From Roseococcus pinisoli (GTDB lineage: Bacteria; Pseudomonadota; Alphaproteobacteria; Acetobacterales; Acetobacteraceae): DNA of 64,000 bases. The stretch spans positions 620,001 to 684,000 of the forward strand of contig NZ_JAHCDA010000001.1 in the NCBI RefSeq assembly GCF_018413645.1. Direction: 5' to 3'. The notes beneath the pieces are model-generated. The model was given only the letters and a program-made list of their open reading frames with translations. It was not told the DNA's origin and searched no databases. Of the stretch, positions 37,297 through 55,885 are shown piece after piece. The position numbers were made by a program, and so were the translations under genes. Each line of letters starts with the position of its first letter. The stretch's first letter is position 1.

Positions 37297-38715
37297 ATGA
37301 TCTTCGCCTCCTTCGAGTTCCTCTTCCTCTTCCTTCCCGTCTTCTTTTTCCTTTATTTCCTGACGCCGGCCCGGCACCGCAACTGGACCATCCTGATCCT
37401 CTCCTGGGCCTTCTATGCCTGGTGGCGGGTGGATTTCCTGGGGCTGCTGGTCTTCGTCACGGCCTTCAGCTTCGTCACCGCCCGGCTGATTGATCGCCTC
37501 CCGCCCGGGCCAGCGAGGAACCGGCTGCTGGCCTTCGGCCTCACCGTCATCCTGGGCGTGCTGGCCTATTTCAAATACGCCAATTTCGGTGTGCAGACCT
37601 TCAATGACGCGGTCACCGCGCTGGGCCTGACGCCCACGGCCTGGTCGGAGATCATCCTGCCGATCGGCCTCTCCTTCTACGTGCTGCAATCGGTCAGCTA
37701 CCTGGTCGACGTCTGGCGCGGCACCGTTCCGGTCAGCCGCAGCTTCGTCTCCTACGCGGCCTACAAGGCCATCTTCAGCCAGCTCATCGCCGGCCCCATC
37801 GTGCGCTACGCCGAGCTCCAGGAGGACCTGAAGCACCGCGTCCACACGCTCGAGAAGTTCGGGCTGGGCGCGCGGCGCTTCATGATCGGCTTCTGCATGA
37901 AGGTGCTGATCGCCGACACCATCTCGCCCATGGTGGACGCCGTCTATGCGCTGCCCAATCCCAGCATGGCCGACGCCTGGGCCGGCGCCGTCGGCTACAC
38001 GCTGCAGCTCTTCTTCGACTTCGCGGGCTATTCGGCGATGGCCATCGGCCTCGCGCAGATGTGCGCCTTCCGCTTCCCGGAGAACTTCAACAATCCCTAC
38101 CTGTCGGGGAACATCCAGGAATTCTGGCAGCGCTGGCACATGACGCTGAGCCGCTTCCTGCGCGACTACCTCTACATCTCGCTCGGCGGGAACCGGAAAG
38201 GCTCCTTCCGCACCTATGCCAACCTGCTACTGACCATGGTGATCGGCGGCCTGTGGCACGGCGCCAACTGGACCTTCATCTTCTGGGGCTTCTGGCACGG
38301 CAGCCTGCTCGCCCTCCATCGCGCCTGGCGCGCCGCCGGCAGGGGCCCGATGCCCTACCTGCCCGGCCATCTCCTGCTGATGCTGGTAGTGATCCTCGGC
38401 TGGGTCGCCTTCCGCGCGCACGACATGGGCAATGCGCTGGCGATGTACGGCGCCATGTTCACGCCCGGCAGCCTCAGGGTCTCCGACGAGTTGGCCTGGC
38501 AGGTGACGCCGGACCAGTGGTGGTGCCTGCTGATCGCGACGGTGCTGGTCTATCTGCCGCTGCTGGGCGAGCACCTTCCCTTTCTGCGGGCACCGCAAAG
38601 CATGGGCGCCTTCTGGCGCTACGGCTGGGCCGCGGCGCCCCTGGCGGGCTTCGTGCTGGGCATGATCCTGCTCTACAGCCGCGCCGCCGTCCCCTTCCTC
38701 TATTTCCAGTTCTGA
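37297..38715 (+). CDS. MBOAT O-acyltransferase, AlgI/WssH-like
   Basis: Polytopic membrane protein of 472 aa. It moves acetyl groups across the inner membrane for exopolysaccharide O-acetylation, as AlgI does for alginate and WssH for Pseudomonas cellulose. The N-terminus MIFASFEFLFLFLPVFFFLYFL, the QFFFDFAGYS-type segment LFFDFAGYSAMAIGLA and LSRFLRDYLYISLGGNRKG are all family hallmarks. Active-site His321 lies in GGLWHGANWTF, the same context as AlgI His322, with a second His at 334. It starts the operon with the AlgJ-like gene and converges on the bcs operon. Confidence 0.93.
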   Translation: MIFASFEFLFLFLPVFFFLYFLTPARHRNWTILILSWAFYAWWRVDFLGLLVFVTAFSFVTARLIDRLPPGPARNRLLAFGLTVILGVLAYFKYANFGVQTFNDAVTALGLTPTAWSEIILPIGLSFYVLQSVSYLVDVWRGTVPVSRSFVSYAAYKAIFSQLIAGPIVRYAELQEDLKHRVHTLEKFGLGARRFMIGFCMKVLIADTISPMVDAVYALPNPSMADAWAGAVGYTLQLFFDFAGYSAMAIGLAQMCAFRFPENFNNPYLSGNIQEFWQRWHMTLSRFLRDYLYISLGGNRKGSFRTYANLLLTMVIGGLWHGANWTFIFWGFWHGSLLALHRAWRAAGRGPMPYLPGHLLLMLVVILGWVAFRAHDMGNALAMYGAMFTPGSLRVSDELAWQVTPDQWWCLLIATVLVYLPLLGEHLPFLRAPQSMGAFWRYGWAAAPLAGFVLGMILLYSRAAVPFLYFQF

Positions 38716-38722
38716 GGGCGCG

Positions 38723-39835
38723 ATGCGGATTCGGAACTGGCTTCGCAAGATCGCCCTCTGGCAGGCCGTCATGGTCATCGCCATCCTCGCCTGGGGCTTC
38801 TCCGAGGGGCTGCGCGCCATCGCCCTCCCGGCGGCGCAGCAGCGTCTGCAGCCCACGCTGACCGGCGAGGCCTTCATCGCCGGGCGGACGGCCGCGGCGA
38901 TCAACCACATCATGGCCCACAACCTGCCCATCGACCCCTGGGCGCGCGCGGCCGGCGGCCTGTTCCGCTGGGGCTTGTTCCGCTCCGGCGGGCCGCAGGT
39001 GCGTGTGGGCTGCGACGGCTGGCTCTTCCTGAACGAGGAACTCCGCCCCTGGCCCGATGCCGAGGCCGCGATGGGCGAGCGCGTCGCGGCGCTGGCACGC
39101 ATCCGCGACCGGCTGGCCGCGCGGAACATCGCCCTGCTGGTGGCGGTGGTGCCGGACAAGGCGCGGGTGCATGGCGACCGGCTCTGCGGCGCGCCGCTTT
39201 CCGCCCAGGCGGCCGCGCGTCACGACCGCTTCCTCGCCGCGCTGGAGGCTAGGAACCTCTCCCCCCTGCCGCTGCTGGCGCCGCTGCAGGCCCTGACCGC
39301 CCGGCAGGACGCCTATTGGCGCACGGACACCCATTGGAACCAGGACGGCGCGGCCACGGCCGCCCAGGCCATTGCCGCCCGCGCGGCAGGCCTCACGCTG
39401 GACCGGCCCGGCGGCTTCACCACGACCCGCGACGTCATCCTGACCCCTGGCCCGGGCGACCTGCTGCGCCTGATGGGCCTCGACATCCTGCCCGACGGGC
39501 TGCGGCCGCCGATCGACCGGCAGTACCTCGCCCATACCCGCGAGCCCGAGGCCTCCGGTGGCCTGCTGGACGACGATGCCGGCGCGCCGCAGGTGGCGCT
39601 GATCGGCTCCTCCTATTCGGTGAACGCCAATTTCCACGGCGCCCTGCAGGAGGCGCTGGGCACCAGGGTCACGAATCTGGCCCGGGCGGGCGGCGGCTTC
39701 TCCGGCGCCGCCTCGGACTATTTTTCCGGCGCGACCTTCCGCGAGAGCCCGCCGCGGCTGGTCATCTGGGAAATCCCGGAGCGGGTGATCGGCCAGCCCG
39801 TCACGCCTGAGGAGCGGGCCTTTCTCGAGCGATAG
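38723..39835 (+). CDS. AlgJ/WssI-like periplasmic O-acetyltransferase (SGNH/DHHW)
   Basis: 370-aa membrane-anchored periplasmic protein, with an N-terminal helix at about residues 9-30. It has the AlgJ/AlgX-type SGNH layout: the Asp-His pair in RTDTHWNQDGA (about Asp201, His203) and the nucleophile Ser in LIGSSYSVNANF. The segment GCDGWLFLNEE is the typical entry to this domain. It would accept acetyl groups from the MBOAT partner 7 bp upstream and pass them to polymer. Ends 6 bp from the convergent SGNH hydrolase stop. Confidence 0.87.
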   Translation: MRIRNWLRKIALWQAVMVIAILAWGFSEGLRAIALPAAQQRLQPTLTGEAFIAGRTAAAINHIMAHNLPIDPWARAAGGLFRWGLFRSGGPQVRVGCDGWLFLNEELRPWPDAEAAMGERVAALARIRDRLAARNIALLVAVVPDKARVHGDRLCGAPLSAQAAARHDRFLAALEARNLSPLPLLAPLQALTARQDAYWRTDTHWNQDGAATAAQAIAARAAGLTLDRPGGFTTTRDVILTPGPGDLLRLMGLDILPDGLRPPIDRQYLAHTREPEASGGLLDDDAGAPQVALIGSSYSVNANFHGALQEALGTRVTNLARAGGGFSGAASDYFSGATFRESPPRLVIWEIPERVIGQPVTPEERAFLER

Positions 39836-39841
39836 GCCGCG

Positions 39842-40576
39842 TCAGCGCAGCGTGTCGCGCAGGATCGGCTCGATCGCCGTCGAGAGAATCGCGTAGCCGA
39901 CCATGGTGAGGTGGAGCGTGTCGAAGGACACGTAGTTGCCGAGATTGCCCGCCCCATCGAGCAGCAGCGGGCCAGGATTGGCGAAGACGACGCGCCGACC
40001 ATCCGCACAGGAGGCAATGAGGCGGTTGGTCTGCTCGACCAGCGGCCGCACCGGATCGGCCGTCGTGGTCCCGCGCGGCAGGATGCCCAGCAGCAGGATC
40101 CGCGACGTCGGCGAAAGCTGCTGCAGCTTGGCCACGATGGCGCCGATGCCCGCCGCGGTATTCTCCGGCGTCGAGCCGTAGCCGAGATTGTTCGTGCCGA
40201 TCATCAGCACGATGAGCTCGGGGCGCAGCCCGTTGGGCCAATGCCCGTTCTCCAGCCGCCACAGCAGGCCCTGGGTCGCGTCGCCGCCCAGGCCGAGGTT
40301 CAGCGGCGCGCGATGCCCGTAGAACTGCTGATAGATCTGTGCCTGCCAGCCCTCGATGATGGAATCGCCGAGGAAGACCAGCCGGCTATGCGATACATTG
40401 GTCTGCCGCAGCCGCGCCGTCAGCGCGTCGGCGCCCACCCCCCAGGGCGGCCAGGGTTGCCGGCTCGCCTGCGCTTCCGCCGGTAGCGCGAGCCCCCGGT
40501 GCGGCGCCGGGCATGCCGCGAAGGCGGGCAAGGCGAGCCCGGCGGCCAGGGCGGCGGCCGTGAGCCACAGCCGCAT
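39842..40576 (-). CDS. Exported SGNH/GDSL hydrolase
   Basis: 244-aa secreted esterase-type protein of the platelet-activating-factor-acetylhydrolase-like SGNH group. Signal peptide is residues 1-21 (ending AFAAC). Block I is FLGDSIIEGW (Ser72), the Gly block is NLGLGGDATQG, the Asn block is MIGTNN (Asn130) and the C-terminal pair is Asp219/His222 in FDTLHLT. The catalytic set is complete. It is the last gene of the bcs operon, 8 bp after bcsC. In Komagataeibacter the type II cellulose operon carries an SGNH gene (bcsX) with an acyltransferase, so a role in acyl editing of cellulose is plausible; this is inference. Confidence 0.85.
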   Translation of the reverse strand: MRLWLTAAALAAGLALPAFAACPAPHRGLALPAEAQASRQPWPPWGVGADALTARLRQTNVSHSRLVFLGDSIIEGWQAQIYQQFYGHRAPLNLGLGGDATQGLLWRLENGHWPNGLRPELIVLMIGTNNLGYGSTPENTAAGIGAIVAKLQQLSPTSRILLLGILPRGTTTADPVRPLVEQTNRLIASCADGRRVVFANPGPLLLDGAGNLGNYVSFDTLHLTMVGYAILSTAIEPILRDTLR

Positions 40577-40584
40577 CCCCTGGC

Positions 40585-43500
40585 TCACCAGACCGGCCGG
40601 GTCGAGCCCTGCGGGAGCTGAACCCATTCCGGCCGTCCCTGCCGGTAGCTGCTCTGGATGGGGTCGTTCACGTTCGGCCGCGGATAGGCCGCGCCGTCAT
40701 AGAAGGGCTGCAGATCCGCCCGCGGCTGATCCAGGCGCCAGCGGAGGTAGAAGAAGCCCGCCGCCTCGTCCCAGTTGCCCACCCGCTCGTAGCGGCCGGC
40801 CGCGCCCAGGCGCAGGTTCGGCGTGAGCGCGTATTCCAGGTTCGCGAAGATCGAGCCGGTCGGTCCCGTGCTCCGGTAGCCCGCGACGCGCGTGGCGAGC
40901 GAGCTGTCCAGCGCGGCCGCCTGCTCCAGCTGCGCCTGCATGGCGGCATTGGTGGGGAAGACCGCGCTCGAGCTCGTGCGATAGGCCTGGTAACCAGCCC
41001 CGCCCACCGTGCGGAAGGACCAGTCGCCCCAATGGCCGATATACTCGGCCTGGACCTGGCCCTGCAGGCTCTGCTGCGGGCTGAAGTAGCCGCCATGGCC
41101 GAAGGTGAAGCCGCTCAGATTGTGGTCGTAGCCGGTGTAGAAGCCGCCGACGCCCAGGGTCAGGCTCTGGTTCCGGTTGCGCAGCACGTTGTAGTAGGCG
41201 CCGACCGAGGCCTCGATCCGCTTGTTCGACTGCACGTTCTGGCCGTCGATCGAATAGCCGCCGACCCCGGCATAGGCGCCCCAGCGTCCGCCCGGCGTGT
41301 ATTCCAGCTGCACCCGGCCGCCGGTCCGCACCACGCCGCCCCAATTCGTCGGCCAGTTGCGCTCGCGCTGGCCGGCATAGGAGAGGATGCTGTCCGTCAT
41401 GGCGCGGCGCTCGAAGGTCATGCGCACGCGGAACTGCTCGTTGATGCGCGGCACGACTTCCACGCCGCCCACCACGGTGGGGTTGGCGAAGCCAAGCGGC
41501 GTCGAGCCGATATCGGCGCGGAAGTTGTTGCGCAGATAGGTCAGCCGCAGCGCCGCGCCGTCGACCGCCGCATTGGGCCGGCGGAATTCCGACTGCGGCA
41601 GCAGCGGGTTGGTGCCGAACTGGCGCCCCGCCGCGAGGTTGTTGGCGAGACGCCCAGCATTCATCGAGACCGTGTCGAGCCCGACCACGACGCGCCCGCC
41701 GATCCCCGGCACGGGCGTCGAGACCTCGACGGGCACCACCGTCGTCGTCGCACGCGAAAGGCCGGCATCGCCCGTGCGGCTCTGGATCTGGACGCCGGCC
41801 TGCAGCCAGGTCGCCGCCTCGTCGCGGGCGCGCACCAGCTCTTCCGCGATCTGGATCGAGGTCCGGTCGGTGAGGCCGCTGGTGGTGCCGCGCCGCGTGG
41901 GGCTGAAGGCGCGGGCGGTCTGGTCCGCCTCGACGATCTGCCCGCTCTGCCGCAGGTGATCCAGCCGACGCGCCGCGACCCGCTCCAGCACCTGCAGCGT
42001 GCGCACATAGTCGCCACGCGCCCGGGCCACGCGGCTTTCCGCCATCAGCACCTGGCTGTCATTGGGATGGAAGAAGGCCGTCTCGGTGAGCAGCGCATCC
42101 GCCTCGCGAAAGTTGCCCTCCGCGGTCGCGACGTCGATCAGCGCGAGGCGCGCCTGCAGGTTGCGCGGATCGCGCTCCAGCACGGCCTGCACGAGCTCCC
42201 GCGCCTCGGCGAAGCGGCGCGCGCCGACATAGAGGCGCACGAGCGCCATGTTCAGCGGCACGCTGGTCGGCTGGGCCTCGAGGTTGGGCCGCAGCGCCTG
42301 ATAGGCTTCCTCCGGCGCCTCGCGGGCGTTCAGCGCATCGGCCTGCTGGACCGCGCCCTGCTCCATCACCCGCGCGAGCTCACGCCGCGTCTCGACCGGC
42401 AAGCTAGTATCGGCCGCGAGCGGATTGGCCAGCGCCGCGGCGTCCTCCATCCGGTCGGCCTCGAGCAGCGCGCTTGCAAGGTCGATGCGGTTCTGCGCCG
42501 TCGTCATCGGATTGGCGACGAGCGCCGCGCGCGCGGCAAGGCCCGCGCCGTAGCTGTCGCCGAGGCGGGCGAAGGCCCGCACCGCCGCCGGGCCGCTGGC
42601 GAAGCTGGGGTCGCGACGGCCGGCCAGGGCCAGCAGCGCCTCGCGCGCGCCCGGACGGCCCTCGCGCACCTGGTATTCGACCTGGCGCACCTCGGCCTCG
42701 CGCCGGGCATTGGCCAGCAGGCGGTTCGTGTCGCTGTTGCGCAGCCGGACCGGGATACGGTCCAGCAGGGTCAGCACGGTGCCGTAGCGCTCGTCCTCAG
42801 CCGCCAGAAGGGCCGCGGCCGTCGAGCTGTCGGCGCTGGTGTCCTGCTCCATCTGGGCCTGCAGGGCCCGGGCTTCGTCCAGCCGATCCATCGCGCGCAG
42901 CTGGCGCACGACGTCGAGCCGCACCCAGGCATTGCCAGGATCCTGGGCCAGCGCGCGCCGCAGGGCCTCCAGCCGGGCCTCCGGATCGTCCAGCAGCAGC
43001 GCGCGATCGCGCATGACGATGGCGCGCGCCTCGCCGGCGCCGGCGATGGTCAGCCCCGCCTCGCGCTGCAGCGCATCGGCCTCGGCGATCCGGCCCTGGC
43101 CGGTCAGCGCGAAATAGAGGCCCGTCTGGGCGTCGCGCAGGCTCGGCCGCAGACCCAGGGCGTTGCGGAAGCGCGTCTCGGCCGTCCCGTAATCCCGGCG
43201 CTGCAGGGCGACCTGGCCGAGGATCAACTCCGCATCCAGGCGCTGCTGGCCGCGCGCCGAAAGTCCCTGGCGCGCCAGACGGTCCGCCGCGTCCAGGTCG
43301 CCGCGTTGAAGCGCACGCCAGCCCTGGGCCGTCGGCGGCGAGACATAGCCGCCGCCGCCGGTGCCGGTCGCGCGAGTGGAATAGGGCCTGAGGTCGCCGA
43401 CGGACCGCGTGAACTCCGCGGCGCGATCCGGCGCCAGGGCGACCGCGCGCTCCAGCAGGCGGCGCGCCTCGTCCATCCGGTTCTGGATCTTGCGCAGCAC

Positions 43501-44487
43501 CGCGAGGCCCAACACGGCCTCCGCATCATTCTCGTCGAGAGCGAGGGCCGCGTTGAAGCGGCGTTCGGCCTCGGCATAATCCCGGCGGTCGATCTCCGCC
43601 CAGCCGACGATGCGCGCTTCGGGTCCAGGCGCAATTCCGCCCTGCGCGGCCTGCAGCTTCGCCTCGAGCTCGCGATCGCCGGGGAAGGCGGACAGATAGG
43701 CCTGGACTCGGACGGCCGTCTCGGCCTCGTCGCCGAGCCATAACAGCGCCTGCCGCCAGGCCTGCCGCGCCGGCTCGCGCATGGCGGGGCGTCGGGCCAG
43801 CTGCTGCAGGCGGTCGACGCCCTCGGCGCGGGTGTCCTCGCGATAGGTCAGGATCTGGGCATAGGTCAGCGCGAGGCGCGTGTCGTTCGGCGCGGCCGCG
43901 ACCTGCCGGTTGAGCGCCTGCACGGCCTCGCGGTAGCCGGCCTCGGAGGACGAGGCCAGCACCTGGTAATATTCGGAGGACAGCGCCGCAGGGACGCGGC
44001 CGTCGCGGAAGACCTGGCGATAGCGTTCCACCGACTCGGCGCCGCGGCCCGCCGCGGCCAGCGCGCGCGCCGCCGCCAGGGCTTCGGCATCGTCGTTGAG
44101 AAGCCGCACGAGATCGCCGAGGCGGGTCAGCCGGGCATCCTGCGGCGCTATACGGCGGAACTGCTGCAGATGGCGCTGCGCGGCGGCGGTCTGGTTGCTG
44201 ACGGCCGCCGTCTCCACCGCACCGCTCAGCGCGTCGAGGTTGTTGGGCTCCACGGCCAGCAGGCGCTCATAGGCCTGCAGGGCCCGCTCCGGGTGCCCCT
44301 GCTGCTGCCAGAACTGCGCCTGCTCCACGAGGTTGTTCGCCGCCGAGCCGCCGGAGGTGCGGACATCGGCCGGCGCCTGCGCCTGGGCCGGCACCGTCGC
44401 GGCGAGAAGCGCGGCGAAGGCCACGTAGGCGGCGGACGAACGACGAGTGTCCTGACGCGCGCCCTTACGGCTCCGGTGCGGCATCAT
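40585..44487 (-). CDS. bcsC: Cellulose synthase outer-membrane subunit BcsC
   Basis: Cellulose export protein of 1300 aa. A signal peptide (about 1-32, ending AQAQAP) precedes a long periplasmic series of TPR repeats (for example AQFWQQQGHPERALQAYERLL) filling about residues 40-850. The C-terminal BCSC_C outer-membrane beta-barrel begins near DAGLSRATTTVVPVEVSTP and ends in a PVW-type aromatic terminus. The start is the ATG with AAGGAAAGG upstream (MMPHRSRKG). It sits between the AlgF-like gene and the SGNH hydrolase. Size and layout match the acetic-acid-bacterium and enterobacterial proteins. Confidence 0.93.
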   Translation of the reverse strand: MMPHRSRKGARQDTRRSSAAYVAFAALLAATVPAQAQAPADVRTSGGSAANNLVEQAQFWQQQGHPERALQAYERLLAVEPNNLDALSGAVETAAVSNQTAAAQRHLQQFRRIAPQDARLTRLGDLVRLLNDDAEALAAARALAAAGRGAESVERYRQVFRDGRVPAALSSEYYQVLASSSEAGYREAVQALNRQVAAAPNDTRLALTYAQILTYREDTRAEGVDRLQQLARRPAMREPARQAWRQALLWLGDEAETAVRVQAYLSAFPGDRELEAKLQAAQGGIAPGPEARIVGWAEIDRRDYAEAERRFNAALALDENDAEAVLGLAVLRKIQNRMDEARRLLERAVALAPDRAAEFTRSVGDLRPYSTRATGTGGGGYVSPPTAQGWRALQRGDLDAADRLARQGLSARGQQRLDAELILGQVALQRRDYGTAETRFRNALGLRPSLRDAQTGLYFALTGQGRIAEADALQREAGLTIAGAGEARAIVMRDRALLLDDPEARLEALRRALAQDPGNAWVRLDVVRQLRAMDRLDEARALQAQMEQDTSADSSTAAALLAAEDERYGTVLTLLDRIPVRLRNSDTNRLLANARREAEVRQVEYQVREGRPGAREALLALAGRRDPSFASGPAAVRAFARLGDSYGAGLAARAALVANPMTTAQNRIDLASALLEADRMEDAAALANPLAADTSLPVETRRELARVMEQGAVQQADALNAREAPEEAYQALRPNLEAQPTSVPLNMALVRLYVGARRFAEARELVQAVLERDPRNLQARLALIDVATAEGNFREADALLTETAFFHPNDSQVLMAESRVARARGDYVRTLQVLERVAARRLDHLRQSGQIVEADQTARAFSPTRRGTTSGLTDRTSIQIAEELVRARDEAATWLQAGVQIQSRTGDAGLSRATTTVVPVEVSTPVPGIGGRVVVGLDTVSMNAGRLANNLAAGRQFGTNPLLPQSEFRRPNAAVDGAALRLTYLRNNFRADIGSTPLGFANPTVVGGVEVVPRINEQFRVRMTFERRAMTDSILSYAGQRERNWPTNWGGVVRTGGRVQLEYTPGGRWGAYAGVGGYSIDGQNVQSNKRIEASVGAYYNVLRNRNQSLTLGVGGFYTGYDHNLSGFTFGHGGYFSPQQSLQGQVQAEYIGHWGDWSFRTVGGAGYQAYRTSSSAVFPTNAAMQAQLEQAAALDSSLATRVAGYRSTGPTGSIFANLEYALTPNLRLGAAGRYERVGNWDEAAGFFYLRWRLDQPRADLQPFYDGAAYPRPNVNDPIQSSYRQGRPEWVQLPQGSTRPVW

Positions 44488-44515
44488 CGGCCTTTCCTTC
44501 ATCATGCCCCGCCCG

Positions 44516-45208
44516 TCATCGCTGATACCGTGCCGTCGTGTCGCGGGTCATGAAGCCGCGGACATCGCTGCCGGAGCCCATGAGCCAGATGCTGTACATG
44601 CCGCCCGCCTCGAGGCCCTGCAGCTCGATCGGCGCCGCCGCGCGGTCGCCGCAGCTCGCGCCGACACGCGCCGTCACCGGGTTCACGCTGCGGGCGCGGG
44701 TGCCCAGTGCCGCCACACCCTCGAAGATCGCCGGGCCCGAAGGCAGCAGCGCGAGGCTGGCGGCCGGACAATCCGGCAGGGCGTTGTAGAAGGCGATGCG
44801 CGAGCGCGTCTGGTTGAAATCGGCCGTGTCCACCACCGCGGTGGCGCCGATGCCGTCCGCCGTCCGGTGCAGCAGCACGGTGTTGAAGCTGCCAGGCTCG
44901 ACCCGCAGCGTCGCGTTGCCGCGGTGCTGGCCTTCCTGGAACTCGAGCCGGAGCGTCCGGCCGGCCACGTTCTCGACCGCCGTATAGGCCATGATGCGCT
45001 GCGCCGGCTCGGTACCGAGCCGCTGTGCCGGCAGGAAGTCAGGGCGCGCCTGCACCTCGCCGCCCAGGCCGTTCACGAGGCGGAGATAGGCCGAGCCGCG
45101 CGGTGGCACCGGGTCGTAAACCTGACTCTGCGCCTGCGCCTGGAAGGCGAGGCCGGGAGCGAGGGCGAGGAATGCCGCCGCTAGCGTCGCACGAAGAAGG
45201 CGCCTCAT
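44516..45208 (-). CDS. AlgF/WssG-like periplasmic O-acetylation protein
   Basis: 230-aa exported protein (signal peptide about 1-26, ending AQAQS) of the AlgF family. The start of the mature domain, VYDPVPPRGSAYLRLVNGL, and the closing region GMYSIWLMGSGSDVRGFMTRD match the family pattern. In alginate and Wss systems AlgF/WssG is needed for acetylation as a periplasmic adaptor with AlgI/AlgJ/AlgX. Its ATG overlaps the stop of the AlgX-like gene, so the two are coupled. bcsC follows 28 bp later. Confidence 0.85.
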   Translation of the reverse strand: MRRLLRATLAAAFLALAPGLAFQAQAQSQVYDPVPPRGSAYLRLVNGLGGEVQARPDFLPAQRLGTEPAQRIMAYTAVENVAGRTLRLEFQEGQHRGNATLRVEPGSFNTVLLHRTADGIGATAVVDTADFNQTRSRIAFYNALPDCPAASLALLPSGPAIFEGVAALGTRARSVNPVTARVGASCGDRAAAPIELQGLEAGGMYSIWLMGSGSDVRGFMTRDTTARYQR

Positions 45209-46191
45209 GCCGCCACGAGCCGGCGGATCTCGGAGATAAAGGTCGTGGGCGCCATCGCCGCCTGACCCCAGGCCGGATTGTTGGTCGAGGTCACCATGTC
45301 GGGTTCCAGCAGGTTCCAGACCAGCGCGCGCGGCCGGTTGCGGCGGAAATCCTCGCTCTTGAGATATTCGAGCAGCGTGAAGTACGGGCCGACACTGTTC
45401 GGCTTCCAGGACAGCGCCACGGGGCGGAGAACCTGATTGGACAGCACGGGCTGGAAGCCGAAGCGCGGTTGCACGTTGCTGGTGCCGATGATGGTCACGT
45501 CGGTCTTGTCGTCGTCGAGCAGCGCGGCCGCGCCCTCGGGGGCGAGCACCTGCCGGATCCAGGATTCCTCGGCGCCATAGGAGGCGCGCTGCGCCTGGCC
45601 GACGTAAGGCGTGAGATCGCCCGCCGCGAGCGTCATGGCCCGCAGGTCACCGAGCCGCGTGCCCGGAAGGTCACTGCGCGGCAGGCCGAGCCGCTCGCGC
45701 ATCTGCCGCGCGACCTCGATGGCCGCGACCTCGGCGCCGACCGGCGTCCAATGCGTGTCCGTCTTCCAGAAGAGCTGGCGCTCGGGCGTGCGCTGCATGA
45801 CCTCACGGAAATGCGCGTCGAGATCGGGCGCCAGGGCACCCGCGCGCCGCACTTCCTCGAGGGTCACGCTGTAGCGGCGCGCAGCCTCCGGCGAAGGACG
45901 CGCGCCCGGCGCCAGGAAGCGCTGCATGAGCCGCTTGCGCGAGGGCACCAGGCACATGACGACGTCCATCCGCCCGCCGCGCAGCGCGGTGACGGCGTTG
46001 GACACCACCTGCACAGTGTCGCGCAGCGCCGCCTGATCCAGCCCGTCGATGCGGTCCCAGACCGGGAAGAGCCAGCCCTGCGTGCCGATCTGGACCAGCC
46101 CGCTCTGCTGCTGCGCGACAGCCGGTGCCGCCGCCATCGCGACGAGCGGCGCCGCCAGCAGGCCGCGACGGGGGAGACGCGCGGCCGTCAT
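45205..46191 (-). CDS. AlgX/WssF-like periplasmic O-acetyltransferase
   Basis: 328-aa exported SGNH-like protein. The N-terminus RLPRRGLLAAPLVAMAAAP has a twin-arginine-type start and cleavage near AVAQQ. The catalytic Asp145 and His147 lie in WKTDTHWTPVGAEV, and the Ser is in VTIIGTSNVQPRFGF. It lacks the C-terminal carbohydrate-binding module of AlgX, so it is nearer WssF/AlgJ. It would place acetyl groups on cellulose in the periplasm. It lies 40 bp after bcsAB and overlaps the AlgF-like gene. Confidence 0.85.
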   Translation of the reverse strand: MTAARLPRRGLLAAPLVAMAAAPAVAQQQSGLVQIGTQGWLFPVWDRIDGLDQAALRDTVQVVSNAVTALRGGRMDVVMCLVPSRKRLMQRFLAPGARPSPEAARRYSVTLEEVRRAGALAPDLDAHFREVMQRTPERQLFWKTDTHWTPVGAEVAAIEVARQMRERLGLPRSDLPGTRLGDLRAMTLAAGDLTPYVGQAQRASYGAEESWIRQVLAPEGAAALLDDDKTDVTIIGTSNVQPRFGFQPVLSNQVLRPVALSWKPNSVGPYFTLLEYLKSEDFRRNRPRALVWNLLEPDMVTSTNNPAWGQAAMAPTTFISEIRRLVAA

Positions 46192-46231
46192 GAGCCGCGC
46201 CCCACCCAGACGCTGGATACCGGCCGGCTCG

Positions 46232-49200
46232 TCACGCCGAGCGCTCCCGCAGGCGCCGCACCGCACGGCGGCGCAGGATCCAGTAAAGCGGCGCCGGCAC
46301 CAGGATCAGCACGACGAACAGGACGCCGAGGAGGTACCAGGGGTTGTTGCCCAGGTAGAATTCCGGCCACAGCCAGGGCGGCAGCTGGCCGACCTCGTAG
46401 GTCCGGTTGACGCGATAAGCCGCGACCCGGCCGCCCGAGAGCAGCGCGAGATCGCCCTGCACGCGCGGCACCTGCTCGGGGTCGCGCAGCGCGGCGACCA
46501 TGTTCTCGAGGCCCGCCGGGCTGGAGCCCGTCAACGCCACGACCGAGCGGCCTGCGTGCAGCGGGCTCTCGAAGCCGATGAGCGCACCGAGTGCCTCGCC
46601 CGGCGCCGCCAGCTGCGCCGAGACGCGCTCCAGCTCGCCCCGGCGGTCGCCGCCGAAGAGGTTGCGGAAATCGCCCATGCCGTCGTTCAGCTGCACGGTG
46701 AGCCGATTGCCGTCGGCCCGCAGCGGGCTCGCGTCGCGCAGCAGGGTCTGCAGGGCGGGCTGCCGGCCGAGCGTGCCGATCACGATCAGGTCCTTGTCGG
46801 CATTCTCCTGCAGCGCGCCGGGTCGGATCACCTGCATGTTCACGGGCGGATAGCCGACCAGCGCCGCGATGCGGCCCGTCATCGTGAAGAAGGCTTCCAG
46901 CTCCTGCTGGCTCGGCCGCTCCGGCAGCACCACCGCCGTCTCGGAGAGGTCGGCGAACTTCGTGAAGGGGAAGCCCGAGCTCACGAAGAAGGCCAGGTTC
47001 GGCAGCGTCGTGAAGCGGTAGGCGCCCGTCAGGTCGATCGTGCTGTCCGGATCCACCGAGGCGCGGATGTCGCCCGGCACGGCGATGCAGTCGCCGCGAT
47101 GCAGCGGGCGCATGTCGAAGCGCAGCTGCAGCTCGTTCTGGCCGAAGAGCATGTAGCTGGGCAGGGCGATCTGTGCCTCGTCCATCTCCGGCGAAACGAA
47201 CTGCCGCTGGATCCAGCTCAGGGGCCAGGTCAGATCCGCCGCCCGCAGGGGAACGGAGCGGAGGTAGACGTCGTTGATCGCGACATCGAGGCGCGAGACC
47301 GCGACGTCCATGATCGGGCCCGGCGGGGCGCGGAAGCGCACGAGCGCGGAGAGGGCGCGCTCGCGCGGCGTGTAGAGATCGGGCGCGGTGCGGAACGGCA
47401 CGGCGATCGGGCCGGGCACATAGCCGAAGGCCTGCAGCTCGGAGGGATCCATGATCTCGCCGAAGCGCAGCGGACGATCCGTGCGCACCCAGCGCGGCGC
47501 GTCATAGGCCGTGCGGGGCGGAACCAGCTGCTCCTGGATGGTCGCGATCTCGCCGGAGAGGGCCTCGCGGCCCACGCCGAGCGCGGTCGCCGCGGCCACC
47601 GCCTCCTGGCCGTTGCGGCCGGCGATGACCAGCAGCAGGCCGTGCGGGTCGGAAGGATTGGCCACGATGGCCAGCGTTGGCCCCTCGAGGCGCGGCAGCA
47701 CGAGGCCCGGGATCGCATCGACGCTGGTGGTGACGACGATCGCGTTGCCCTGGGGCGGCAGGCCCGTCGCCACCGGGAAGTTGGCGCCGCGGTAGTCGGC
47801 CTGCACCGCGAACCACGAAGTTACGATGGCGGCGGAGCGCAGCGCCTCGTTGCTCGGAGTCTCGGGCAGGACGATGGGCAGCGACAGGGGCTCGCGCAGC
47901 AGGCGCGGGTCGAAGAAGGGCTCGGGCAGGCGCGCAAGGTCGCGCGTCACCGGCAGCCGCTCCAGCCGCAGCGAGAGGGTCGAGTTGTCGGAGATTGTGC
48001 TCCAGAGCAGGCCGGAGAGCGGGTCGTTGCACTCGATCGCGTAGCGGCCGGTGAAGCGGAAGTTCAGCCGGTTCACGTCGGCGAAGAAGAAGGGATTGAT
48101 CGGGAATTCGAGCGGGCCGAAGGCCGGCCGCGAACGGTCCGGCTGGACGGTGCCGACGAACTGCTCGTTGAGCGTGAAGGCGATCTGGCTGAGCTCGGGA
48201 ATGAGCGCGGGTGAGGTCGCGCCCTGCAAAGTGAGCCGTGCCGAGGTCACCACCTCGTCGCCGCGCACGCCGAAGAGGATGCCCTGCAGGTCGGACACGC
48301 CGCGCATCTGCATGGGGCCGCGCAGGCCGAGCTGGCGCAGCGTCCGGGTTTCGGTGCGGCCGGTGGGGGCCTCCTGGCCCTCGGCCTGCGTCGGCAAGGC
48401 GCCGTCCGTGCCAGGCGCCTGATCGGCCGGCGAAGCGGCTGTCGGCTGAGGCGAGAGGATCGGCGGTAGCAGTGGCGAGGGCGACAGCACCGGCGCCGCC
48501 GGCGAGCCAATGCCGGGCGGCGCGGGCAGCGCACCAGGCGGCGGCGAGAGCGCCGGTGCGGCCGGGGCGGCGGAGCCCGCCGGGTTCAGCGGGGAGCCGG
48601 GCGTGCGCGTCTGGCCCAGCGCCGGGCCGGACAGCATCAGCAGCAGCGCACCGCTGATGGCCGCCGGCACGCCGGGGCGGCGGGGAGCCTGGCCAGTGCC
48701 CGGGGGCGGCGCCATGGGCGGCCGGTCAGAGGGATCGGCATGCCGCCGCTGACGACGGCGGAAGCTGAACTGCGAACCACCGGAGAAGAGGCCACCAATC
48801 GACACGAATACTTCCTTCAGCGAGCGCAGCGGACGGTCGGCGCGGATGTCGTCCCAATCGACCCAGGCGTCGGCACGCCCGAGCGTCGCGATCACGATGG
48901 CGCCCTCATCGTGGATGTCCTGCGGGAGGAAGCGCAGGTTCACGCGGCCGCCCTGCCAGCGCAGCACCTCGGCCGGCACCCGGACGATCTGCGAACCGGC
49001 GTCGAGCTCCACCATCACCAGTTGGTCCTCACCGATCTGCTCGGGCGTCTCCATGCGCAGCGCAGCACCGCCGAGCGACATATCCTCCGAGATACCCGGG
49101 ATGCGGCGACCGTCGGCCAGGACAATCGTGGTGCTGACTTCCGCCGCGACACGCGCGCGCTCGCGGACCTGTCGACGCTCTCGGCCGACGGCGAGGCCGG

Positions 49201-50869
49201 CCAGCACGGTGATGAGGCAGAAGGCCGCCCAGATGACGTTCAGCGCATAAGCCTGGAACTCCAGGCTGGACACCGGATTGGTCGAGAGGCCCCAGACGCC
49301 CAGCAGGACGCCGAAAATCAGCGCCGTGGCGAGGACCATGTTCGGCCCCACGGCCCGCAGGTCGAAATAGCCTTCCTCGAGCGTGCCGCCCTTGTCGGTG
49401 ACGTTGAAACGGCCGCGCTTGGGATCAAGCAGCGTCGCAAGCGTGACCGGCAGCAGATAGACGGTCAGCACCGTCTCGTAGATCTCGGACCAGAAGGAAT
49501 GGCGCACGTTCTTCTGGATGCGCGAGTTCGTCACGATCGAATGGACGATATGCGGCCCGGCATAGGCGACGATGGCCAGAGGCGACGCCGCGATGATGCT
49601 TTCGCCGAAGACGAGGAAGGCCAGCGGCGCCGTCAGGAACACGAAGCGCGGCAGCGGAAACAGGAAATGGAACATCGCCATGAAGTAGCAAAGGCGCTGG
49701 GGCAGGCTCAGGCCATGGGCGAAGAGCGGGTTCTCCAGCCGCATGATCTGGATCATGCCGCGCGCCCAGCGCATACGCTGGCCGATATGCAGCATCAGCC
49801 GCTCGGTCGCGAGGCCGGCGGCCAGCGGCACGCGCAGATAGGCCGTACGCCAGCCGAGCTTCTGCATGCGCAGCGAGCAGTGGCAGTCCTCGGTCACCGT
49901 CTCGGTCGGCACACCGCCCACGGCCTCGAGCGCGCTGCGCCGCATGACCGCGCAGGAGCCGCAGAAGAAGGTGGCGCCCCAGAAGTCGTTGCCCTGCTGG
50001 ATCAGGCCATAGAAGAGCAAACCCTCATTCGGCACGCGCTGGCCGGAGGCCAGGTTCCGCTCGAAGGGATCGGGCGAGTAGAAGTGATGCGGTGTCTGCA
50101 CCATCGCGAGGCCGTGGTCGCGCAGCATCCATCCGAGGCTGAGCTGCAGGAAGCCGCGCGTGGGCACGTGGTCACAGTCGAAGACGACGACGAATTCGCC
50201 GGAAGTCTGGGCCAGCGCGTTGTTGATGTTGCCGGCCTTCGCGCCCTTGTTGTCGGAACGCGTGATATAGCCGCAGCCCACCTCGGCGGCGAAGCGGCGG
50301 AAATCCTCGCGACGGCCGTCATCCAGCAGATAGACGTTCAGCTTCTCGGCCGGCCAGTCCAGCGCGAGCGCGGCGAAGATGGTCGGCCGAACAACGTCCA
50401 GCGGCTCGTTGTAGGAGGGGATGAACACATCCACGACCGGCCATTCGTCGACATTGGCCGGCATGGGCGCCGGCTTGCGCTCGAGCGGCCAGAGCGTCTG
50501 GAAGTAGGACAGGATCAGCGCGATGACCGCATAGACCTCGGCCAGGAGCAGTCCGGTGCCCAAGAAAGTCTGCAGGAAGGTGCTGAAATCCAGCGTCTCC
50601 GTCATGCGCCAGAAGATGTAGCGCAGGGAGACGATGGTAGAGAGCAGCGCCAGCAGTAGCGTCGCCGTGCGCCCGCCGAAGCGGCCGAAGACCAGGTAGA
50701 AGAAGAAACCACCCAGCGCGAAGATGATCTGCTGCTCAGGCTGCATGGGAACCGTGATGACGGTCGCCGCGGCGACCAGGCCAACAAGCGTGACCAGCCA
50801 GCCGATCCACTTGTTCCGCATGAAGGGAAGACGCGCGAGATGCTCGCGATGGGCGGCTATTTCGTTCAC
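46232..50869 (-). CDS. bcsAB: Cellulose synthase BcsA-BcsB fusion (UDP-forming)
   Basis: Single 1545-aa polypeptide combining catalytic BcsA and periplasmic BcsB, as in Komagataeibacter AcsAB. The glycosyltransferase-2 core is intact: DDG at 183-185, DCD at 231-233, TED at 326-328 and QRMRW at 364-368, flanked by about eight membrane helices. The c-di-GMP-binding PilZ domain follows with the RxxxR region at 565-573 and DMSLGG at 596-601. A Pro-rich linker with a signal-like helix (GVPAAISGALLLMLSGPALG) at about 733-752 leads to the BcsB domain, which ends in a C-terminal membrane anchor at about 1510-1535. GTG start overlapping the bcsQ stop as GTGA. Confidence 0.95.
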   Translation of the reverse strand: MNEIAAHREHLARLPFMRNKWIGWLVTLVGLVAAATVITVPMQPEQQIIFALGGFFFYLVFGRFGGRTATLLLALLSTIVSLRYIFWRMTETLDFSTFLQTFLGTGLLLAEVYAVIALILSYFQTLWPLERKPAPMPANVDEWPVVDVFIPSYNEPLDVVRPTIFAALALDWPAEKLNVYLLDDGRREDFRRFAAEVGCGYITRSDNKGAKAGNINNALAQTSGEFVVVFDCDHVPTRGFLQLSLGWMLRDHGLAMVQTPHHFYSPDPFERNLASGQRVPNEGLLFYGLIQQGNDFWGATFFCGSCAVMRRSALEAVGGVPTETVTEDCHCSLRMQKLGWRTAYLRVPLAAGLATERLMLHIGQRMRWARGMIQIMRLENPLFAHGLSLPQRLCYFMAMFHFLFPLPRFVFLTAPLAFLVFGESIIAASPLAIVAYAGPHIVHSIVTNSRIQKNVRHSFWSEIYETVLTVYLLPVTLATLLDPKRGRFNVTDKGGTLEEGYFDLRAVGPNMVLATALIFGVLLGVWGLSTNPVSSLEFQAYALNVIWAAFCLITVLAGLAVGRERRQVRERARVAAEVSTTIVLADGRRIPGISEDMSLGGAALRMETPEQIGEDQLVMVELDAGSQIVRVPAEVLRWQGGRVNLRFLPQDIHDEGAIVIATLGRADAWVDWDDIRADRPLRSLKEVFVSIGGLFSGGSQFSFRRRQRRHADPSDRPPMAPPPGTGQAPRRPGVPAAISGALLLMLSGPALGQTRTPGSPLNPAGSAAPAAPALSPPPGALPAPPGIGSPAAPVLSPSPLLPPILSPQPTAASPADQAPGTDGALPTQAEGQEAPTGRTETRTLRQLGLRGPMQMRGVSDLQGILFGVRGDEVVTSARLTLQGATSPALIPELSQIAFTLNEQFVGTVQPDRSRPAFGPLEFPINPFFFADVNRLNFRFTGRYAIECNDPLSGLLWSTISDNSTLSLRLERLPVTRDLARLPEPFFDPRLLREPLSLPIVLPETPSNEALRSAAIVTSWFAVQADYRGANFPVATGLPPQGNAIVVTTSVDAIPGLVLPRLEGPTLAIVANPSDPHGLLLVIAGRNGQEAVAAATALGVGREALSGEIATIQEQLVPPRTAYDAPRWVRTDRPLRFGEIMDPSELQAFGYVPGPIAVPFRTAPDLYTPRERALSALVRFRAPPGPIMDVAVSRLDVAINDVYLRSVPLRAADLTWPLSWIQRQFVSPEMDEAQIALPSYMLFGQNELQLRFDMRPLHRGDCIAVPGDIRASVDPDSTIDLTGAYRFTTLPNLAFFVSSGFPFTKFADLSETAVVLPERPSQQELEAFFTMTGRIAALVGYPPVNMQVIRPGALQENADKDLIVIGTLGRQPALQTLLRDASPLRADGNRLTVQLNDGMGDFRNLFGGDRRGELERVSAQLAAPGEALGALIGFESPLHAGRSVVALTGSSPAGLENMVAALRDPEQVPRVQGDLALLSGGRVAAYRVNRTYEVGQLPPWLWPEFYLGNNPWYLLGVLFVVLILVPAPLYWILRRRAVRRLRERSA

Positions 50870-51663
50870 ATGGCCCCCCGGGCGGCGAAAAGCTCGGGCG
50901 CGGCGCCCAGCGCCGCCTCGATGGCGGTGGTGGTTTCCTGCAGATCCAGGGCCGCCTGGCTGCCAGGCGCGACATCGAGCAGGAAGCGTTGCGCGGCAAC
51001 CGCCTCGGCCATCATTTCCTCCCGGCAGATCGCGCCGAGGAGGCGAGGGCCGAGATGCCTCGTCAACATTTCCGAGACCGCTCTCGACAGGCGCGACTTG
51101 GGCTCGATCCCGTTGAGAATGACGCGAAGCCGACCTGCCATGAGGTTGGCTATGGTGCCGCCTCCCAGGAAGCTGCCATTGCTGATCTCCGGCACCAGCG
51201 CCGCGCTGGTGGCATCGGCCAGCAGCACAGCGCAGACCATGTTCGACATCGGGGCCAGGATGCTGAGCGCATGCGAGGCGCCGGGCGGGGTATCGGCGAT
51301 CACCACGAGGTTGGGGTCGGCCAGGATCTCGCGCATCGGCGCGGCGAGAAGCTCCGGTTCCCGGTCGAGCGCCTGGGCGAGGTTGAGGGCCCCACGCACA
51401 TCCGTGGCGCCATGCGGCAGGAGGAAAACGCCCGAGGACGTCCGGCGAACCAACGTCCGCCAGTCGGGTCGCTGGGGCAGCTGGCTCATGAAGCCGGAGG
51501 TGTCGGTGATCGGCAGCGCGAAGTGCAGGCGCAGCGCGTTCTGCGCATCGAAATCGATAGCCAGGACACGACGGCCTCGGCGCTGCAGCGCATCGGCAAC
51601 ATTCGCCGCCAAGGTGGTCTTGCCGACACCGCCCTTAGGGGACGCAAAGCAGATAAGGGGCAT
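50866..51663 (-). CDS. bcsQ: Cellulose biosynthesis ParA-like ATPase BcsQ
   Basis: 265-aa MinD/ParA-type ATPase of the BcsQ/YhjQ family. The deviant Walker A ASPKGGVGKTT lies at residues 7-17, switch I region is IDFDAQNALRLHF and switch II is VIADTPPGAS. In enterobacteria BcsQ localises and supports the cellulose machinery with BcsR. GGAGG lies four bases before the ATG. It lies 14 bp after the BcsR/BcsP-like gene, and its stop overlaps the bcsAB start, giving tight coupling to the synthase. Confidence 0.9.
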   Translation of the reverse strand: MPLICFASPKGGVGKTTLAANVADALQRRGRRVLAIDFDAQNALRLHFALPITDTSGFMSQLPQRPDWRTLVRRTSSGVFLLPHGATDVRGALNLAQALDREPELLAAPMREILADPNLVVIADTPPGASHALSILAPMSNMVCAVLLADATSAALVPEISNGSFLGGGTIANLMAGRLRVILNGIEPKSRLSRAVSEMLTRHLGPRLLGAICREEMMAEAVAAQRFLLDVAPGSQAALDLQETTTAIEAALGAAPELFAARGAM

Positions 51664-51677
51664 TATGCCTCCGGCGT

Positions 51678-52439
51678 CTAGAAGGGCGAAGACGACCGCG
51701 GGGCGGCGCCGAACGTATCATTGGGGGGTGCCGGCGACGGGGAGGCCCCGGCCATCGAACGGATAGCCTCACCTAATGGAAATGTCACGGCGGGATCGGC
51801 CGATTGAACTGCCCCGGCAGGCGAGGCGACTTGCTGGCGTAGCCGGGCCAACGTGCCCTCTGGCGTCGGTCGGGCGGCCACGGGCGGGGACTCCAGCGCG
51901 GCCTGGATCGAATTCAACAGGGTGAATTCCGGAACGGCAGGCCCTGCCGGCGCCACGAGGGGAAGCGGCACTGCCAGGCCGGCATCGAGGGTAGGGGCAG
52001 GCATCGGCAACGGCGCGGCCGTGACCGGGGCTGGCGGAAAGAAGCTTGGCGGAGGGATGGGTGCGGATGGAGGGGCGGCTGCCACGGCCGGCTGGACGGG
52101 AAAGGTGGGCGCCACGTGCAGGGGCGCCATCGCCGGAGGAGGCGGCGCGGGCGCCGGGGCAACGGGGGCCGGCGTGAATCCCGAAGCCGGGAAGGTTACC
52201 GTATCGCCTTCGACGTCCATGGCCGCAGACGCACGCGGCGGAAGGCTGGCTTCACCCTCGGCCAGGCGTACCGCCGCGGAAGTGGAGCGAAGCTCGCGGA
52301 GCACGACCTCGGGACTCTGGGACGAGGCCTCACGGCGCGGCGCATCGGTCCGCACCGGCATATTGCCGAAGCTTCGATAACGCAGCCCAGGCGCGTTAAA
52401 CGCCGCAGCGACTCGCGCCACGTCGGGTTCGTTCGCCAT
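51678..52439 (-). CDS. BcsR/BcsP-like proline-rich cellulose biosynthesis protein
   Basis: 253-aa protein, first gene of the bcs operon. The N-terminus EPDVARVAAAFNAPGLRYRSF fits the short BcsR/BcsP motif (Asp-Val, hydrophobic helix, then Tyr-Arg). Most of the rest (about 85-175) is Pro/Ala low-complexity sequence, followed by EFTLLNSIQAALESPP and a short tail. No signal peptide. BcsR partners BcsQ in regulating BcsA; BcsP-like proteins with Pro-rich extensions occur in beta-proteobacteria. Assignment rests on the short motif plus position. Confidence 0.65.
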   Translation of the reverse strand: MANEPDVARVAAAFNAPGLRYRSFGNMPVRTDAPRREASSQSPEVVLRELRSTSAAVRLAEGEASLPPRASAAMDVEGDTVTFPASGFTPAPVAPAPAPPPPAMAPLHVAPTFPVQPAVAAAPPSAPIPPPSFFPPAPVTAAPLPMPAPTLDAGLAVPLPLVAPAGPAVPEFTLLNSIQAALESPPVAARPTPEGTLARLRQQVASPAGAVQSADPAVTFPLGEAIRSMAGASPSPAPPNDTFGAAPRSSSPF

Positions 52440-55773: not shown

Positions 55774-55885
55774 CTCTCAATCCCCTTGCGTTTGTCGGGC
55801 GAGGACCGCCACGCTGAGGGATCGCGACGGCTGACCATGCATCGTGCCGGGCCAGGGTGGCAGAGACGGAAGAATAGAGGCGGAT

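Follow-up and report, generated by a model that had tools for sequence, protein, structure and literature searches.

Which polymer does a bacterium make when its cellulose operon is interleaved with O-acetylation genes, and which enzymes would acetylate it? The question is raised by a locus of Roseococcus pinisoli (NZ_JAHCDA010000001.1, 620,001–684,000), which we analyzed within a window of 64,000 nt with a GC content of 70%; coordinates below are positions in this window. Gene content, protein families, catalytic residues, clades and predicted folds together indicate that the locus probably directs cellulose synthesis and periplasmic O-acetylation of the product. A sequence-only reading of the same DNA had proposed partially acetylated cellulose as the product and a complete Wss-type set as its source. 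It was right on the function, as predicted here, and on three of the four acetylation families, and wrong on the completeness of the set.

Organization of the Locus

A minus-strand operon (39842–51663) contains, in the order of transcription, bcsQ, a bcsA-bcsB fusion (bcsAB), an algX-like gene, an algF-like gene, bcsC and, last, a gene for a GDSL esterase. It is faced by a plus-strand pair (37297–39835) composed of a gene for a membrane-bound O-acyltransferase (MBOAT) followed by an algJ-like gene, and only 6 nt separate the stop codons of the algJ-like and GDSL genes, where the two units converge. By their coordinates, bcsQ and bcsAB overlap by 4 nt, as do algX and algF, and the remaining gaps are 40 nt (bcsAB-algX), 10 nt (algF-bcsC), 8 nt (bcsC-GDSL) and 7 nt (MBOAT-algJ). 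Every gene was an open frame at the coordinates of the sequence-only reading, and the third-position GC, determined by codon position, was of the coding type (0.83–0.93) for all eight bcs and acetylation genes. Families and coordinates thus agree with the earlier description of four acetylation-type proteins in or beside a BcsAB-fusion cellulose operon, split over two converging units, with algX and algF between bcsAB and bcsC. Terminator-like sites numbered 4, against 5.9 expected, and none lay between the converging stop codons.

The gene set is beyond chance, because AlgX and AlgF profile matches lay within 153 nt of each other on the same strand in 35 of the 36 loci read, and the order bcsAB-algX-algF-bcsC was kept in all 10 algX-holding genomes sampled from the genus, the window included (one contig stops inside bcsC). 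The same genome carries a second bcsQ-bcsAB-bcsC operon elsewhere, and the 19 kb read there gave no match to an acetylation gene.

WssH-Type MBOAT and WssI-Type AlgJ-Like Protein

The reference loci comprised nine Pseudomonas wss-type loci (eight with the whole set; L172 has WssF and AlgF, and no MBOAT or AlgJ match), 59 named alginate-type loci, nearly all from Pseudomonas and defined by the order MBOAT-AlgJ-AlgF plus a longer, AlgX-size frame, and loci of Acetobacteraceae. The MBOAT of the window (37297–38715, plus strand) matched PF03062 at 92.8 bits, above the cut-off, and fell in the WssH clade, which was separated from 14 alginate-type AlgI sequences at 99% in the Shimodaira–Hasegawa-like approximate likelihood ratio test (SH-aLRT) and, in a second, careful tree, from two alginate-type rows at 100/100. 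It was placed far from both other MBOATs of its own genome. The AlgJ-like SGNH acetyltransferase (38723–39835, plus strand) matched PF16822 at 236.9 bits, also above the cut-off, grouped with WssI (98% SH-aLRT) and had AlgJ (4o8v) as its best match in the PDB (E 1.1e-38). Its N-terminus has a hydrophobic stretch, judged by eye, that is a putative anchor.

The catalytic residues were consistent with these assignments. The AlgI-type His321 pointed out in the sequence-only reading was invariant in 24 of 24 distinct MBOAT sequences, and the DHHW protein described there as AlgJ-like has a D202-H204-S297 triad that was invariant in 23 of 23. The C-terminal motif FLYFQF, which includes Tyr469, was present in all 98 distinct MBOAT frames (35 alphaproteobacterial or plasmid-borne, 55 alginate-type and 8 from Pseudomonas wss loci); the other two MBOATs of the window's genome have FLYFRF and FIYFQF. 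PatA, a related MBOAT, acetylates the Tyr of a C-terminal FXYXXF motif and passes the acetyl group to an SGNH partner, and its authors extended this acetyl-Tyr shuttle model to cellulose systems with WssH (PMC12148441). One of the other MBOATs of the genome (L115, 7508–10083) adjoins a protein with weak likeness to AlgJ, and a glycosyltransferase-like gene lies in that region; this is probably an acetylation pair for a different surface polymer.

An AlgX-Like Lineage within PF16822

The AlgX-like SGNH protein (45205–46191, minus strand) matched PF16822 at 157.4 bits, above the cut-off, with a triad (D145-H147-S238) that was invariant in 52 of 52 sequences. It formed with its relatives a clade of its own (99%, on a stem of 1.22 changes per column), beside those of alginate AlgX (99%) and AlgJ (86%), and is a third, apparently unrecognized, PF16822 lineage. 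The separate clade, the length of 328 aa, compared with 456–487 aa in the alginate AlgX chains of the PDB, and the lack of the AlgX-type C-terminal carbohydrate-binding module, the predicted model being a single SGNH-type domain, show that it is not an AlgX orthologue. The AlphaFold model (pLDDT 88.4) had AlgJ 4o8v as its closest solved fold (E 3.5e-22, TM score 0.83 by target), followed by AlgX 4knc (E 2.3e-15, TM 0.49 by target), a DHHW protein and PatB1, which supports the predicted assignment as an SGNH transferase.

The N-terminus appeared signal-like by eye, with a pair of Arg residues invariant in 18 aligned rows. By a strict rule (RR plus an apolar stretch), the pattern occurred in 30/43 AlgX-like, 18/38 AlgF, 6/23 GDSL and 2/14 AlgJ proteins, and in 0/47 long alginate-type frames, a set that includes some that are not AlgX. 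A twin-arginine translocation signal is a weak candidate for this lineage, beside Sec export, since Arg-rich genomes blur the RR signal.

WssF Is Absent from the Genome

WssF of the Pseudomonas loci is an SGNH protein of ~220 aa outside PF16822, and the one sequence scanned gave weak GDSL and DUF459 matches only. The AlgX-like profile matched WssF in none of the nine Pseudomonas loci, and a direct comparison of the two profiles detected no similarity (probability 6.5%), which rules out that they are remote relatives visible to profiles. The WssF profile had no match in the window's genome, and WssF was found in 1 of the 14 genomes sampled from the genus (G365). The same profile matched the protein in the BcsX position of Komagataeibacter-type loci at 316 bits (two genomes recognized by gene order), in agreement with PMC9318390.

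The idea of a complete Wss-type set is therefore not tenable: WssF is absent, and the single co-directional operon wssA-J is replaced by two converging units. Nor does the label AlgX/WssF-like fit a protein of a third PF16822 clade that shares no profile similarity with WssF. WssF is called an AlgX analogue or homologue in PMC4148444, PMC10302187 and PMC10641220, and this equation may explain the label. The GDSL gene was also considered as the counterpart of WssF and was rejected, since its product matches platelet-activating factor (PAF) acetylhydrolases and co-occurs with WssF in several loci, and its profile had no match in the nine Pseudomonas loci.

Identity of the AlgF-Like Protein

The fourth protein (44516–45208, minus strand), with two predicted beta-sandwich domains, scored only 17.0 bits against PF11182 and is alone below the cut-off of 34.4 bits, which its relative in L051 passes at 40.5 bits. 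The AlgF-like profile matched Pseudomonas WssG at 89–120 bits in 9 of 9 loci, and a search with the single sequence reached AlgF at 24–37 bits in 58 of the 59 alginate-type loci. The AlphaFold model (pLDDT 88.6) had the PepT2 ectodomain as its top fold match (E 1.8e-9), and a less significant match to the C-terminal domain of AlgF (6d10; E 0.0069, TM 0.81 by target, root-mean-square deviation 2.2, 89 columns). PepT2 was also reported as a fold neighbor in the AlgF structure paper, where AlgF is the proposed adaptor between AlgJ and AlgX, linked to AlgK, a tetratricopeptide repeat (TPR) protein (PMC10641220). Through these sequence intermediates and the predicted fold, the protein is assigned as an AlgF/WssG relative, as the sequence-only reading had it, and as a putative periplasmic adaptor.

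Distribution in the Family and the Genus

We surveyed 397 genomes of the family, a sample of one per species in which many are fragmented; some of them repeat named loci, as seen from identical tree rows, and named loci are not included in the counts. BcsB was found in 160 genomes, WssI-type AlgJ in 51, WssF/BcsX in 41 and the AlgX-like protein in 39, after one of 40 matched genomes (G003) was dropped since its sole match was its own AlgJ. The 51 genomes with a WssI-type AlgJ divided into 33 with the AlgX-like protein only, 11 with WssF only, 3 with both and 4 with neither, and genomes without this AlgJ had the AlgX-like protein in 3 cases and WssF in 27.

The loci of 36 of the 39 AlgX-like genomes were read (the others being G000, which is the window itself, and G270 and G305, which were left out), 15 of them being shorter than 20 kb. 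AlgF adjoined AlgX in 35, BcsAB was present in 12, a full-length BcsC in 14, either BcsC or BcsAB in 16, BcsC or a BcsC-like TPR protein in 30, MBOAT plus AlgJ in 13 and the GDSL protein in 20. A BcsC-like TPR protein of ~900 aa is found in cassettes of Roseomonas and Pararoseomonas, and the one scanned (L044) gave no barrel-domain match. Another locus, L118 (G143), is a co-directional run bcsAB-TPR-MBOAT-AlgJ-AlgX-AlgF-TPR-GDSL-AlgX-TPR. Among the 14 genomes sampled from the window's genus, 10 hold the AlgX-like gene, always between bcsAB and bcsC; the MBOAT-AlgJ pair converges on the bcs operon in 5 of these 10, and 4 have a second algX copy downstream of the GDSL gene, in one case in pieces.

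Exchange of WssF and the AlgX-Like Protein

In the 47 loci read from the WssF search, 19 had WssF between bcsAB and bcsC without an MBOAT, which is the type II order, and the gene after WssF encoded an acyltransferase-3 in the single such locus scanned. Twelve WssF loci hold MBOAT and AlgJ, and in five of these (L201, L203, L206, L210 and L213) WssF-MBOAT-AlgJ converges on GDSL-AlgF-BcsC, as in the window, except that WssF precedes the MBOAT and AlgX is lacking. Cassettes with WssF in place of AlgX are these five, L201 being from the window's genus, and L205.

Changes of partner on the MBOAT tree number 7, and starred branches make 6 of these unavoidable. The first count labelled two genomes with both genes (G006 and G374) as WssF; without the genomes holding both there were still 7 changes, and restriction to alphaproteobacterial loci that themselves contain the partner left 6. 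The AlgJ tree, which covers all 51 genomes (52 rows, owing to two G015 copies), shows 10 changes for the AlgX-like protein and 8 for WssF, and its starred branches force 7 changes for the AlgX-only label. Two or more swaps lie within a single genus, as seen for G365 in the genus of the window and for G010 versus G105. These change counts support a repeated gain and loss of both modules.

Fisher's test for exclusion of the two gave p 0.0018 in the 160 BcsB genomes, 0.78 in all 397 and 7.8e-6 in the 51 WssI genomes. A pair test on selected loci (n = 6) gave 0 same, 4–5 opposite and 1–2 without difference (p 0.0625–0.125), and is biased because the loci were chosen for having the AlgX-like protein or WssF. 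The mutual exclusion was not significant once kinship was corrected for.

Proposed Mechanism and Alternative Explanations

By homology, the WssH-type MBOAT would load acetyl groups from cytoplasmic acetyl-CoA onto Tyr469 of the FLYFQF motif, aided by His321, and the membrane-anchored WssI-type AlgJ-like protein would accept them on Ser297. The AlgF-like adaptor would join the AlgJ-like and AlgX-like proteins at the TPR domain of BcsC, and the AlgX-like protein would place the acetyl group, via Ser238, on the glucan as it leaves BcsAB; trimming of acetyl groups may fall to the GDSL esterase. Relative to Pseudomonas wss, the AlgX-like protein would stand in the place of WssF. That it does WssF's job is likely, and we infer this rather than conclude it, because the exclusion lost its significance on correction and the N-terminus of WssF is too short for a signal peptide. 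The least certain parts are which PF16822 protein is the terminal transferase and whether the AlgX-like protein and WssF catalyze the same step.

Several observations weigh against this scheme. The MBOAT-AlgJ pair lies elsewhere in 4 of the 10 algX-holding genomes of the genus (G301, G322, G352 and G377; G338 is undecided, with both ends at contig ends). Seven Roseomonas and Pararoseomonas cassettes (L041, L043–L047 and L050), which have the ~900-aa TPR protein, showed no BcsA or BcsB match within ~20 kb, and plasmid pII of Paraburkholderia dioscoreae (L198) carries AlgF-MBOAT-AlgJ-AlgX beside NfrA (PF13283, 189 bits) and wecB, with a glycosyltransferase family 2 (GT2) protein alongside. The latter is an NfrA/NfrB-like exopolysaccharide locus, of the NfrBA type described in PMC8669469, and suggests an O-acetylated NfrB polymer. 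The cassette is thus not cellulose-specific as such, and placement of the genes with an unrelated polysaccharide, which the sequence-only reading had named as evidence against itself, was found in part, in the Roseomonas cassettes lacking bcsAB and beside the NfrA-type locus. The cassette of the window could then acetylate another exopolysaccharide, its position reflecting regulation or a TPR/export protein shared with bcs. We regard this as quite improbable, since the bcs operon encloses algX and algF, flanked by the synthase and exporter genes, in the window and nine relatives, since the MBOAT and AlgJ group with WssH and WssI, which are linked to cellulose, and since a full-length BcsC or BcsAB is found in 16 of the 36 algX loci even with the 15 short ones included. 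Partially acetylated cellulose thus remains the best reading by gene content and by the WssH and WssI clades, as a prediction from sequence.

The division of labor is less firm. WssI alone can transfer acetyl groups to cello-oligomers in vitro, and two terminal transferases were judged plausible by the authors (PMC10302187); the AlgX-like protein is nearer to AlgJ than to AlgX by both fold and sequence; and four WssI-type genomes have neither the AlgX-like protein nor WssF, though three of them are only 69–85% complete. The WssI-type AlgJ could accordingly be the terminal enzyme and the AlgX-like protein an esterase or a redundant second acceptor. This is rather unlikely in our view, given the complete triad in every AlgX-like sequence and the side-by-side position of AlgX and AlgF in all but one of the loci, as the AlgF-AlgX pair of alginate predicts (PMC10641220). 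A stronger contender, though still one we would not favor, is that WssF/BcsX and the AlgX-like protein have distinct roles and alternate by an accident of lineage sorting. It is consistent with the absence of profile similarity and with the corrected test on the 51-genome tree, in which 0.3 pairs were the same, 2.6 opposite and 4.1 without difference (median p 0.5). Both genes also occur together in 3 of the 51 genomes and on a Methylobacterium plasmid. Furthermore, the GDS motif of WssF/BcsX begins after only 13–16 residues in 44 of 53 frames (L185 and L188 counted twice; the other 9 extend further upstream, and 7 more frames lack the motif), and the BcsX signal peptide was called questionable in PMC9318390. 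WssF without room for a signal peptide and an AlgX-like protein with a signal-like N-terminus may therefore act in different compartments. Against this stand the repeated changes of partner that the MBOAT tree shows for cassettes that otherwise agree, the forced changes on the AlgJ tree and the swaps within single genera.

We propose, with slightly less than even confidence, that bacterial cellulose acylation is modular: the membrane loader (MBOAT, AlgJ and AlgF, or the acyltransferase-3 BcsY) and the final SGNH protein (WssF/BcsX or the AlgX-like protein) would be swapped independently, the window combining the MBOAT loader with the AlgX-like protein, and WssF would work at the step of the AlgX-like terminal transferase, though seemingly without an export signal. 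The role of WssF could be probed directly through this natural swap, and bacterially made acetyl-cellulose is of material interest.

Cellulose Genes and Neighboring Genes

BcsAB (46232–50869, minus strand) is a cellulose synthase with GT2 and PilZ domains fused to BcsB (TIGR03030, 850 bits; PF03170, 585 bits). BcsC (40585–44505, minus strand) combines TPR repeats with an outer-membrane barrel for cellulose export (PF05420, 283 bits), and the BcsQ-like ATPase (50866–51663, minus strand) matched PF06564 at 99 bits and TIGR03371 at 156 bits, just below the cut-off of 157.85. The GDSL/SGNH protein (39842–40576, minus strand) matched PF13472 at 88.7 bits and 3dt6 of the PDB at E 5.9e-31, with a signal-like N-terminus and with G-D-S and D..H residues invariant in 25 of 25 sequences; by its likeness to PAF acetylhydrolases, it is a candidate acetyl esterase for trimming. 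The PF03170, PF05420, PF06564 and PF13472 scores all exceed their cut-offs. Directly upstream of bcsQ, a proline-rich protein (51678–52439, minus strand; 51 Pro in 253 residues) had no Pfam or NCBIfam family match and an atypical codon GC. Proline-rich frames with similar C-terminal stretches occupy the same place in 8 of 10 relatives inspected, and we take a BcsP- or BcsH-like accessory protein to be possible. A BcsZ-like endoglucanase of glycoside hydrolase family 8 (GH8; 55844–57169, plus strand; PF01270, 202 bits) is encoded 4 kb upstream of the operon on the other strand. It is one of three GH8 genes in the genome and overlaps the start of a solute-binding-protein gene (55844–58308 for the two, plus strand).

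Comparison with Known Systems

The locus is a variant of known acetylated-cellulose systems, and no such arrangement is described in the open-access literature searched. The suggestion that the hybrid arrangement may be undescribed holds to that extent, but convergent layouts recur elsewhere in the family, in other genera, and also on a plasmid of Methylobacterium. This plasmid, pMaq22A_2p of M. aquaticum (L197), resembles the window in that bcsC-bcsD-MBOAT-AlgJ converges on AlgX-AlgF, with GDSL and GH8 genes, and differs in its WssF, its second AlgF-like gene and its bcsD; bcsC-bcsD, WssF, the AlgX-like gene, two AlgF-like genes, the GDSL gene and two GH8 genes lie there within 16 kb.

Gene content and order in the loci read confirmed the contrasts that had been drawn with Komagataeibacter and Pseudomonas. 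The type II operons of Komagataeibacter, bcsAB-bcsX-bcsY-bcsC, for which we used genomes with that gene order and PMC9318390, likewise have a BcsAB fusion, acylation genes between bcsAB and bcsC and more than one bcs operon per genome. Unlike the window, they have a WssF-like BcsX and an acyltransferase-3, BcsY, no MBOAT, AlgJ or AlgF, and a BcsA in another clade; no acyltransferase-3 (PF01757) match was found among nine window proteins scanned, and the BcsA tree (quick method) rules out that the operons are orthologous. The alginate system AlgI-AlgJ-AlgF-AlgX resembles the window in the kind of its four families, two of its proteins belonging to PF16822 and one being the AlgF adaptor, whereas the MBOAT and AlgJ-like protein of the window fall with Wss proteins, its AlgX-like protein forms a separate clade and its polymer genes are bcs.

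The wssA-J locus of the Pseudomonas fluorescens type shares with the window the BcsA/B/C machinery, a WssH-clade MBOAT, a WssI-clade AlgJ-like protein and an AlgF/WssG-like protein. Unlike it, the window has no WssF and instead an AlgX-like PF16822 protein and a GDSL esterase, with BcsA and BcsB fused, and with two converging units in which algX and algF lie between bcsAB and bcsC. The alphaproteobacterial WssH-type proteins formed their own group beside, not inside, that of Pseudomonas (98%; 87/92, unstarred, in the careful tree), and the MBOAT trees leave an origin from Pseudomonas undecided because their root is not settled. In 2020, a survey of 1733 genomes reported four operons for acetylated cellulose, with alginate operons of Pseudomonas as their proposed origin (PMC7112194); against those four operons, a WssI-type protein was found here in 51 of 397 genomes of one family.

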